DNA from: an uncultured Synergistales bacterium
GTDB taxonomy: Bacteria; Synergistota; Synergistia; Synergistales; Aminobacteriaceae
DNA length: 64,000 nt
Assembly (NCBI GenBank): GCA_905235735.1
Contig: CAJOMU010000001.1
Span: forward strand, 62,001 to 126,000
Direction of reading: 5' to 3'
In this document: one piece after another, positions 22,076-51,504 of the stretch
Layout of the letters: every line of letters begins with the position of its first letter
Position numbering within the stretch: the first letter of the stretch is position 1
Program-made: the position numbers and the translations under genes
Notes under the pieces: model-generated
What the model was told of the DNA's origin: nothing
Databases searched by the model: none
The model's input: the letters and a program-made list of their open reading frames with translations, nothing else

Positions 22076-22104
22076 TTGACGCACCCATAATGCCCAAATA
22101 AAAT
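22076..22104 (+). promoter_or_regulatory. Sigma-70-type promoter of the DUF1015 operon
   Basis: TTGACG (22076-22081), 17-base spacer, TAAAAT (22099-22104). The same two hexamers occur at the purB and both tRNA promoters in this window. The expected transcript start is near 22111, which leaves only about 27 bases before the conserved coding sequence. Confidence 0.75.
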
Positions 22105-22137
22105 TATTATCATTAATTCAAAGAAAGGACTTGAAGA

Positions 22138-23343
22138 ATCATATTCACATCTGGAAATTTCTTACTGCCTAACGTCAATGATTTATCTCAATGGGCAGTC
22201 ATTGCCTGCGATCAATTTACATCACAGCCGGAATACTGGCAGAAGGTACAATCAATCGCAGGTACATCACCGTCTGCATACAATCTCATTCTTCCTGAGG
22301 CCATGCTGAATGAGTCCGGGCTTCAGAAGATTGAACAGATAAATGCCGCAATGAATAGCTATCTTGAACAGAACATCTTCACTGAATACAGAGACTCATA
22401 TGTATACGTTGAACGTGAACTCCTTGACGGTTCAATCAGGCGCGGTGTCGTTGGAGTGATTGACCTTGAAGAATATGATTATCGTGAAGGAACAGCATCA
22501 AGGATACGTGCAACAGAAGAGACAGTAAAAGAACGAATCCCCGCACGCAAAACTATCCGTGAAAATGCAGCACTCGAACTCTCACACGTGATTCTCCTCT
22601 GCGATGATGAAAAGAAAACTCTCATTGAACCTTTGACGCATTCAAAGCATAGCATGAAGAAACTCTACGGTTTTGAACTTATGCTCGGAGGAGGAAAAAT
22701 TGACGGCTGGCTGATGAATGGTGAACATGCAAGAGCATTCAATACACGAATGAACTCGTACATTAAGCGAAAGGCAAAAGAACTGTCATTAACGTTTGCT
22801 GTAGGTGATGGGAATCATTCACTTGCTGCGGCTAAAGCATGTTACCTCGATAATCCCTCTGAGCTTTCACGTTACGCAATGGTTGAACTTGAGAATATTC
22901 ATGATGATGCATTGAAGTTTGAACCAATTCACAGAATCGTTAAGGGAGTTAATCCTGAAGAATTTATTGCGGAGATTCAGAATCAAATATGCGTTAAAGG
23001 TTGGACAAGTTCAAAAAATTCATGGGCATTGAACTATTACTCACACGGCAAGAAAGGCATAATCTTCATCGATAAGTCCAAAGGAGCATCGGCATTAATC
23101 GTTCTGCAAAAATATCTTGATGAAAGAGGCTGTGATATAGATTATATTCATGACACCGAATCACTTCGCAAACTTGCAGATGAATCCGGCTGTGTTGGAT
23201 TTGAGATGCCTGCGTTTGATGAGAATGCTAAACGTGATTTCTTCAGCATAATCTCACAGTCAGGTGTACTGCCTAGAAAGACATTCTCAATGGGTCATGC
23301 ACAGGAGAAGCGTTATTACCTTGAAGCCAGGAGAATCAAATAA
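22138..23343 (+). CDS. DUF1015 family protein with apparent non-canonical start
   Basis: A DUF1015 family protein of about 401 residues, function unknown, often found near serine or cofactor metabolism genes. The conserved N-terminal block of the family (GNFLLPN, then WAVIACDQFTSQPEYW) is encoded from about 22144, but no ATG, GTG or TTG exists in that frame between the stop at 22132 and ATG 22303. AAAGGA at 22124-22129 lies 8 bases before ATC at 22138 and 11 before ATA at 22141, so translation probably begins there. A conserved AVGDGNHSLAAAK motif lies mid-protein. A start at 22303 would delete about 55 conserved residues. A sequencing error is the alternative. The next gene overlaps by one base. 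Confidence 0.8.
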   Translation: MIFTSGNFLLPNVNDLSQWAVIACDQFTSQPEYWQKVQSIAGTSPSAYNLILPEAMLNESGLQKIEQINAAMNSYLEQNIFTEYRDSYVYVERELLDGSIRRGVVGVIDLEEYDYREGTASRIRATEETVKERIPARKTIRENAALELSHVILLCDDEKKTLIEPLTHSKHSMKKLYGFELMLGGGKIDGWLMNGEHARAFNTRMNSYIKRKAKELSLTFAVGDGNHSLAAAKACYLDNPSELSRYAMVELENIHDDALKFEPIHRIVKGVNPEEFIAEIQNQICVKGWTSSKNSWALNYYSHGKKGIIFIDKSKGASALIVLQKYLDERGCDIDYIHDTESLRKLADESGCVGFEMPAFDENAKRDFFSIISQSGVLPRKTFSMGHAQEKRYYLEARRIK

Positions 23344-24209
23344 TGCTTGCCGATTTAGCCCTTCTATACTGCGCAATGTTCTGGGGATTAAGTTTCCCGA
23401 CAATGAAGATACTCGTCAATATTTATCCTACATGCTGGCTTTTATTCCTGAGATTCGGAACTGCCGCACTCATGGTATATGTATTCTTTCGCGGGAGAAT
23501 TCACGAATCGATTCGTAAATGTCTCAAGGGAGGAATGATAATCGGTGCACTTCTATTCGCGGCAATAGGAAGCCAGACTGTCGGACTTCAATACATAGGC
23601 GGAGGACGTTCTGCATTCATATCAGCAATATACGTTCTGATAGTTCCGTTAATGGTCTGGGCATTCAGGAAGGTATTTCCCGGATGGATTACACTCTTTG
23701 CGGCGTGCTTATGCGTTGTCGGAATGTATTTTCTCACTGGTGATGACATGACAGGCCCTATGAACATAGGCGACATTCTCACGATAATATGTGCGGTTAC
23801 GTTTGCAGTTCAGATACTCGCGATCAATCATTACACTTATGACTGCGATCCCATTACGCTCAGTTTCATTGAGTTCGTTACGCTTGCAGTACTGTCATTC
23901 ATAACGTCATTGATATTCGAGACACGCAATGAAATTCTCAGCATGAACGGAATATATGAGCTTGCATTCACAACTGTATTCTGTACGTTCGGGTGTTACA
24001 TGATTCAGATATGCGCACAGAAATACGCAAAGCCTTCACATGCCGCTATCATAATGAGCCTTGAATCAGTGTTCGGATTATTCAGCAGCATAATATTTCT
24101 CGGTGAGACATTAACGATGAGGGCATCAATAGGATGTGCGATGATATTTGCGTCTGTACTGATAGCAGAGCTTGAACCATTCATGCATTTCAAAACGAAT
24201 CGAGGCTGA
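23343..24209 (+). CDS. EamA/DMT-family transporter
   Basis: Integral membrane protein of 288 residues with ten hydrophobic segments arranged as two EamA repeats (about 1-135 and 145-280), the drug/metabolite transporter fold. The second repeat ends with the usual PSHAAIIMSLESVFG and LGE segments. Substrate cannot be told from sequence. The start codon overlaps the DUF1015 stop as TAATG, so the genes are translationally coupled. Confidence 0.88.
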   Translation: MLADLALLYCAMFWGLSFPTMKILVNIYPTCWLLFLRFGTAALMVYVFFRGRIHESIRKCLKGGMIIGALLFAAIGSQTVGLQYIGGGRSAFISAIYVLIVPLMVWAFRKVFPGWITLFAACLCVVGMYFLTGDDMTGPMNIGDILTIICAVTFAVQILAINHYTYDCDPITLSFIEFVTLAVLSFITSLIFETRNEILSMNGIYELAFTTVFCTFGCYMIQICAQKYAKPSHAAIIMSLESVFGLFSSIIFLGETLTMRASIGCAMIFASVLIAELEPFMHFKTNRG

Positions 24210-27432: not shown

Positions 27433-28794
27433 TTACTCATATATTAAATATGGTTCACGCTGCTTTTTGAAAAATTCGATGTCATCTTTCCATGAACCCT
27501 TAATCTCTTGGGCTGTATTGCCATTTTCTACCATTATCCGCAATTTATCAGAACCGCTCAGCTTATCAATCCAGTATACCCCGTTTTTATCAGGAGTTCC
27601 CCAGAAAGATTCGTCTTGCAATTTTCCTTTTACTGCGTTGTAAGCTCTTACTAAATAATCAAGATTAATTCCATCACTCAAAATTTTTTCGATTGGTGTA
27701 GTTCTTAAATCCTCTCCATAACATATTTCGTTCTCAAACGGGGGATTTTGAGCACCGCTAGTACTTTGCGGCGTAAACGAAAAATTAAATCCTTCAACAT
27801 TTTCAAGATATGGACTGCCGTAAACTTCAAAAGGAAAATCTGTTCCACGTCCGACAGATACTGACGTATTTTCAAAAAAACATATCGATGCATAAAGATA
27901 CACTGCCCTCATATCCCTGATATTGGGTGAAGGTCTGCGGATTAAATAGCTTTTTTTGCTGTGTGAATAATTTTTGCATGGTATCACTGTCAGATTACAT
28001 GAATTTTTCCCTGCTTCTAACCAGCCCTCACCGTTGATCATTTGCGCAAGTTCTCCCCAAGTCATGCCATACACTACCGGAATTGGAAGCTGACCAACTC
28101 CGGATTTATATGAATCCTGTAAAATTCCTCCGTCAACATAAAATCCATTGGGATTCGGTCTGTCTAAAATAATTACTTCCTTGCCGGCTGCCGCACATGC
28201 GTCCATGAGATAATACAGAGTAATATAATATGTGTAATACCTCAAACCTACATCCTGCATATCTACCACTAGTGTATCAAATTTCCCCATATCTTCCGAA
28301 GAAGGCGAATGCGTGTTATTTGCATATAGCGATAATATAGGGATTCCTGTCTTCTCATCTACGGTATCATCTATTGTTGTCCCAGCATCTTCTGTCCCTC
28401 TAAAACCATGTTCAGGGCAAAATATTGCTGTAACATTTACATTTTTTTCAATTAGTGCGTCAAGAATATGCTCACCATAAATAATTTCGTTTCCATTTAA
28501 GTCCGTTCCGAATTGGATTAATGATTTATCAATTTCTGGATTGCCGTTCGTTATATCGGCTTTAGAACCGTCTTCTTGAAAAATCATGTCTCCGACTATG
28601 CCGGTATGATTGGAATATAAAGCAACACGCTTCCCGTTCAACATTGGAATATACACATCAAATTGCTCATTGCCGAGCACTATGCGCCCTGACTCTGATA
28701 TTGAGTTCGTGTGAGAAGACCCGCCACAGCCCGCCAAACTAAAAATCAGAGCAGCTATTACACTTAACGTGAAAAAACTATTCCTAAAATTCAT
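27433..28794 (-). CDS. DUF1343/NamZ-like exo-N-acetylmuramidase lipoprotein
   Basis: Secreted lipoprotein of 453 residues. The signal peptide ends in a lipobox (SLAGC at about residue 22). The body matches DUF1343, characterised in Bacillus NamZ as an exo-beta-N-acetylmuramidase acting on peptidoglycan fragments: RVALYSNHTGI, IFCPEHGFRG, DMQDVGLRYYTY, LDRPNPNG and the C-terminal fold are all recognisable. The likely job is recycling of muropeptide glycans in the periplasm. No companion NagZ or amidase gene is seen nearby. Good ribosome binding site (CAGGAGG). A terminator-like repeat lies just upstream, at 28813-28847. Confidence 0.88.
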   Translation of the reverse strand: MNFRNSFFTLSVIAALIFSLAGCGGSSHTNSISESGRIVLGNEQFDVYIPMLNGKRVALYSNHTGIVGDMIFQEDGSKADITNGNPEIDKSLIQFGTDLNGNEIIYGEHILDALIEKNVNVTAIFCPEHGFRGTEDAGTTIDDTVDEKTGIPILSLYANNTHSPSSEDMGKFDTLVVDMQDVGLRYYTYYITLYYLMDACAAAGKEVIILDRPNPNGFYVDGGILQDSYKSGVGQLPIPVVYGMTWGELAQMINGEGWLEAGKNSCNLTVIPCKNYSHSKKSYLIRRPSPNIRDMRAVYLYASICFFENTSVSVGRGTDFPFEVYGSPYLENVEGFNFSFTPQSTSGAQNPPFENEICYGEDLRTTPIEKILSDGINLDYLVRAYNAVKGKLQDESFWGTPDKNGVYWIDKLSGSDKLRIMVENGNTAQEIKGSWKDDIEFFKKQREPYLIYE

Positions 28795-28812
28795 GAATAA
28801 GCCTCCTGAATT

Positions 28813-28847
28813 AAAAAATTCCCCTATTATTCTAACACGCGAGAGAA
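28813..28847 (-). repeat. Hairpin repeat copy A (decayed terminator upstream of the NamZ-like gene)
   Basis: A 35-base stretch matching 29849-29883 at 29 of 35 positions, in the same orientation. Read on the minus strand it is TTCTCT, a loop, a pairing arm with GGGGAA, then six T, so it still has terminator form with some G-T pairs. It stands in the leader of the NamZ-like gene, where a terminator is not expected. Confidence 0.75.
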
Positions 28848-28939
28848 GTGAACTGCCGCGACTTGGCGTTACTCCCGTAGCCCCTACGATAGTTATTTCT
28901 ATATCGACTGCTTCCGTCTTTCATGGATACTTAGTTTTC

Positions 28940-51427: not shown

Positions 51428-51504
51428 TGGTGGCGGGGAATGGATTTGAACCATTGACCTTCGGGTTATGAGCCCGACGAGCTTCCAAACTGCTCCACCC
51501 CGCG
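51428..51504 (-). tRNA. Initiator tRNA-fMet (CAT)
   Basis: Starts CGCGGGGTGGAGCAG and has the GGG/CCC anticodon-stem pairs, anticodon loop CTCATAA and A11-T24, all initiator hallmarks. CCA is encoded. Positions 1 and 72 are C and C, still unpaired but not the usual C-A. It sits 11 bases upstream of tRNA-Met in the same transcript. Confidence 0.95.

Follow-up and report, generated by a model that had tools for sequence, protein, structure and literature searches.

A conserved AUA codon as the probable start of a DUF1015 gene in a Synergistales genus with further candidate AUA/AUU starts

The window, a 64,000-nucleotide stretch of an uncultured Synergistales genome (assembly of 2.1 Mb in 41 contigs), contains a DUF1015 gene preceded by a promoter and a Shine-Dalgarno (SD) sequence and followed directly by a transporter gene. 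The features of the locus are as follows.

22076-22081, plus strand: -35 box TTGACG, followed by a 17-nt spacer
22099-22104, plus strand: -10 box TAAAAT, 36 nt 5' of the ATA at 22141
22124-22134, plus strand: SD sequence AAAGGA (22124-22129) with an NTGA extension (AAAGGA-C-TTGA), conserved in nearly all species
22132-22134, plus strand: TGA, a stop in the DUF1015 frame, followed by AGA, ATC, ATA, TTC, ACA, TCT
22138-22140, plus strand: ATC, rejected as the start; the aligned codon is variable in 34 species
22141-22143, plus strand: ATA, proposed start codon; the aligned codon is ATA, ATT or ATG in 34 species
22141-23343, plus strand: DUF1015 gene, 400 codons and a stop, predicted serine-kinase-like fold (PF06245, AlphaFold2, Foldseek)
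22303-22305, plus strand: earliest ATG in frame; not accepted as the start, given the conservation of the N-terminus upstream of it
23343-24209, plus strand: EamA transporter gene (PF00892), its start overlapping the DUF1015 stop (TAATG)

Membership of the encoded protein in DUF1015 is clear (PF06245, 177.3 bits against a Pfam gathering cut-off of 25.8; E 4.8e-52), and the EamA transporter gene adjoins DUF1015 in all 34 loci compared. Of the named relatives the nearest, an uncultured Synergistales bacterium, comes from a reindeer sample; its DUF1015 protein is 96% identical and its start region is the same as that of the window. Other near relatives by this protein are Synergistaceae of the ruminant gut. 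An earlier note on this DNA had placed the SD at 22124-22129, the stop at 22132, ATC at 22138, ATA at 22141 and ATG at 22303, all of which proved correct, and had proposed that the gene lacks a canonical start. A search of the DUF1015 frame for ATG, GTG or TTG between the TGA at 22132 and the ATG at 22303 found none. Most relatives, whose alignment the note had suggested, show the same: of 34 orthologues from one GTDB genus (Synergistaceae, uncultured and from the rumen), the window's own included, 30 lack an in-frame ATG, GTG or TTG in the interval from the SD to the conserved block.

As the first canonical codon in frame, ATG 22303 could be the true start, with the conservation upstream of it unrelated to the protein. 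Such a start would forfeit conserved N-terminal sequence, as the note had predicted: 54 residues would be lost, 12 of them invariant among 33 sequences from several phyla. The block is present in relatives, contrary to a scenario the note had raised in which they would lack it. In the AlphaFold2 model (mean pLDDT 91.9), residues 1-10 score 97 and residues 5-10 form a confident strand, and both promoter and SD are located at 22076-22134. We give a start at 22303 almost no credence. Foldseek returned nine matches to the model at E <0.001, namely SerK, SbnI and one Pyrococcus protein whose function is not known. SerK and SbnI (E 2.4e-6 to 3.9e-5) were the only significant fold matches; they scored as having the same fold, with moderate query TM-scores of 0.29-0.38, and the Pyrococcus protein shares it. 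The DUF1015 protein differs from SerK and SbnI in being larger, with 9-12% identity and no sequence match; phmmer against PDB sequences found none at E 0.001. We read the protein as a probable SerK-like enzyme, its serine-kinase-like activity being suggested by the fold.

Comparison of the start region across the 34 orthologues distinguished between the two isoleucine codons that the note had offered as starts. The codon aligned with 22141 is ATA in 22, ATT in 11 and ATG in one, and is never ATC or a valine codon; at least seven changes on the tree are needed to account for it, all confined to ATA, ATT and ATG. This is not how isoleucine codons behave elsewhere in the gene: all 17 other conserved isoleucine columns (at least 90% isoleucine in the same orthologue set) include ATC, and in no such column does ATA reach a count of 22. 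The codon aligned with 22138 encodes isoleucine in 23 species, threonine in four, alanine and asparagine in two each, and histidine, valine or methionine in the others, and codon -2 relative to 22141 is likewise free. One codon 5' of the ATA, ATC 22138 (most relatives have ATT) could by its codon serve as a start in about two thirds of the species, and its distance of 8 nt from the SD is usable; yet in about ten species the codon here is GCT, ACT, ACC, ACG, CAC or AAT. Aligned SD-to-ATG spacing in the host genome is mostly 7-13 nt, with 9 as the commonest value. In DUF1015 it is 9 for ATA 22141 and 6 for ATC 22138, a value rarer than 9 among ATG genes. We consider a start at 22138 improbable. 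Of the note's two candidates ATA thus stands and ATC falls, and as a non-canonical start ATA 22141 is strongly supported by the alignment. The SD-to-ATG spacing of this genome is long, exceeding the usual E. coli optimum.

In one orthologue (L031) codons -1 and 0 are both ATG, so that a canonical start stands at the very position occupied by ATA or ATT in the others. In three others (L004, L022 and L023) an ATG is present three codons before the start position; this counts against the ATA/ATT start, although the ATG abuts the SD. In L011 a TTG is present, located 5' of its SD. An ordinary ATG is found at a more 5' position in L035, a more divergent member of the genus (53% identity), and in most Clostridia examined the DUF1015 ATG is two codons earlier (M-A-I-F, M-S-V-F). 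Because the Clostridia have Ile or Val at the aligned position (M-A-I-F), codon 22141 may in part be kept for its residue; a hydrophobic residue may also be favoured at codon 0, although the residue would be Met in a protein started there. The assembly is a draft, and a change of one base would turn ATC or ATA into ATG; about 30 separately assembled species agree, however, and we regard a sequencing or assembly error that conceals an ATG as negligibly probable. Nor is there need for the one-base error placing TTG 22131 in frame that the note had named. On the evidence of the orthologues, the absence of a canonical DUF1015 start cannot be put down to chance or to a sequencing error.

The promoter that the note had read as TTGACG-17-TAAAAT is correctly placed and conserved: 25 of 34 same-genus orthologues match it perfectly, always at a spacing of 17. 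In these 25 species the -10 box lies 33-45 nt before the start codon, and the mRNA would therefore have a leader of about 30 nt with a single SD. This SD reads GAAAGGA, and in most species NTGA comes after it at a fixed distance whatever the reading frame. The TGA can plausibly extend the complement to the anti-SD (GGAGGUGA), across a gap of one base in most species. We excluded the idea that it is a conserved stop; it tracks the SD and not the frame. The conservation of NTGA beside the SD could also indicate initiation at TTG 22131, with a frameshift or as a 13-codon regulatory leader peptide, as the note had suggested, and this TTG does open 13 codons in a frame other than that of DUF1015. 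However, the NTG of the element falls in frame 0, +1 or +2 relative to DUF1015 depending on the species, which refutes either role; its N is often C, the NTG lies 0-1 nt from the SD, too close, and no conserved leader peptide follows. We judge this reading very unlikely.

The layout of the proposed AUA start recurs in infC. In the window's genus infC starts with TTG (e.g. L058, L061, L062 and L064), and in sister Synergistales families it starts with ATA (L051-L057, L059, L060, L063, L065, L066 and L079), arranged as GGAGG-TGA-NNN-NYT-ATA-GCT. The DUF1015 start has the same layout as this infC (GGAGGTGA-NNN-NYT-ATA), and the NYT preceding the ATA of sister-family infC further argues against reading the codon at 22138 as the start. 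An initiator tRNA is encoded in the window (51428-51504, minus strand) with anticodon CAT, the three G-C pairs kept and C-C at 1:72; the E. coli initiator has C-A there. An unusual initiator tRNA or IF3 was considered as a cause of relaxed initiation and dismissed, the tRNA being ordinary apart from C-C at 1:72 and IF3 being full length. An AUC start would oppose C to C at the third codon-anticodon position, and would be expected to be the worst of AUA, AUU and AUC. In vitro, IF3 excludes weak third pairs, and AUU with anticodon CAU is strongly reduced (PMC10158994). By analogy with results obtained in E. coli, Streptomyces and Staphylococcus (PMC5472188, PMC13009471), IF3 would repress the AUA/AUU starts of the genus and probably limits translation of the genes that carry them.

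We screened nearly the whole genome (2.106 Mb) for frames whose coding part precedes the first canonical start. The screen is crude and relies on an approximate gene caller, and the other genes it lists are a minimum; the classic prfB frameshift ranked near the top, as expected. In the 277 genes where no canonical start has an SD, ATA was the codon most over-represented after a strong SD (14 versus 5.8 expected; nominal p 0.002 for the best of 61 codons, before correction for the 61). The following candidates were supported by orthologues.

trmD, L148:1251-2375 (G000 contig C23), minus strand: apparent start ATT (GAGGATTAAAT ATT AAC GTA)
polA, L212:14494-16845 (contig C14), plus strand: start position behind GAGGTGA
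DnaJ-domain gene, L183:17683-18582 (contig C5), minus strand: start ATA (AGGAGGAGTTCAC ATA GAC)
queT-like gene, L201:4938-5405, plus strand: start ATT; ATT or ATA in orthologues
murA, L169 near 5765, plus strand: probable ATA start

The trmD start is ATT in 22 and ATA in one of 23 same-genus orthologues, behind codons that are free to vary, and with this ATT as the start, residue 2 of the protein falls on position 2 of the NCBIfam TrmD models. At the polA start position ATA, ATT, ATC, GTG or ATG is found according to species; an in-frame GTG lies inside the SD in many species, and others have TGA there. The DnaJ-domain gene mostly has ATA at its start position, with some ATT or ATC and with ATG in two loci (L319, L321). 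In one murA orthologue (L382) the ATA position is TTG and the later ATG is replaced by CTG; comparisons for murA and queT are fewer or weaker than for the other genes. With DUF1015 included, these alignments bring the genes of the genus that have conserved AUA/AUU starts to at least five and probably six, murA being the probable one. A pattern search of the window's own genome for the SD-ATA layout returned two matches (L128 and L129), neither relevant. A RecQ-like gene (L181) was dropped as a further case, having too few homologues.

Non-canonical starts of this kind are known from infC, ccpN, sigR and pncA, and the published reports cited here describe one to four AUA/AUU/AUC-start genes per organism. 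DUF1015 resembles infC (AUU, AUA or AUC) in lacking a canonical start (30 of 34), in the start-like constraint on its codon and in a strong SD at a spacing of 9, and sister-family infC has its AUA behind an SD with TGA at the same spacing. The difference is that the gene here is DUF1015, the infC of this genus having TTG; S. aureus infC starts at AUA (PMC13009471). Staphylococcal ccpN (AUA) and cvfC1 (AUU) share the conserved AUA/AUU start, an extended SD and the position as first gene of the transcript; their starts were shown by ribosome profiling and reporters, at about 10-30% of AUG (PMC13009471), whereas that of DUF1015 is deduced by comparison alone. Streptomyces sigR likewise has a genus-wide conserved non-canonical start and a conserved SD, but uses GTC/GTT, and its control by IF3 was demonstrated experimentally (PMC5472188). 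Borrelia pncA (bbe22), with an AUU start, was similarly annotated from a later canonical codon that truncates the fold; it differs in being a single gene confirmed by a crystal structure (PMC13398362).

Comparison of orthologues establishes the frame, the start position, the codon constraint, the SD, the promoter and the other genes. We propose that the ordinary initiator tRNA (anticodon CAU) would start DUF1015 at AUA 22141 or, in roughly one species in three, at AUU, with the conserved GAAAGGA-NTGA on a short leader setting the codon at the spacing usual for the genome. The weak third codon-anticodon pair, disfavoured by IF3, would hold expression low and IF3-sensitive, as for infC, ccpN and sigR. 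DUF1015 would then be one of at least five, probably six, such genes, and its product probably a SerK-like enzyme. We hold this proposal as a whole with high confidence. A broader reading, in which start choice is relaxed throughout the genus, AUA/AUU being routine even in trmD, polA and murA, IF3 setting the expression of these genes jointly and infC having moved from AUA to UUG, is more speculative, and we lean somewhat against it.

Neither the DUF1015 case nor the genus-wide spread of such starts was found described in the literature searched, from which DUF1015 itself is all but absent. A single genus with at least five such genes, core functions among them, lends itself to natural experiments on IF3 and on how start codons are selected, the evidence taking the form of orthologues that swap ATA/ATT with other start codons or of a fixed ATT after free codons. 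Gene finders run automatically will cut these proteins short or set their starts in the wrong place. For DUF1015, the fold provides a lead as a serine-kinase-like family.

Two further observations concern the 5' ends of other frames. On the minus strand of the window, a long frame at 27435-28923 continues in coding-like fashion for 42 codons ahead of its first canonical start. Elsewhere, transferase-like frames carry short tandem repeats at their 5' ends (NHEPRTT, TTNDQRP and SHIPHPT), as in phase-variable genes.

L202 near 16831; L140 near 13595; L192 near 3645: repeat-bearing transferase-like frames
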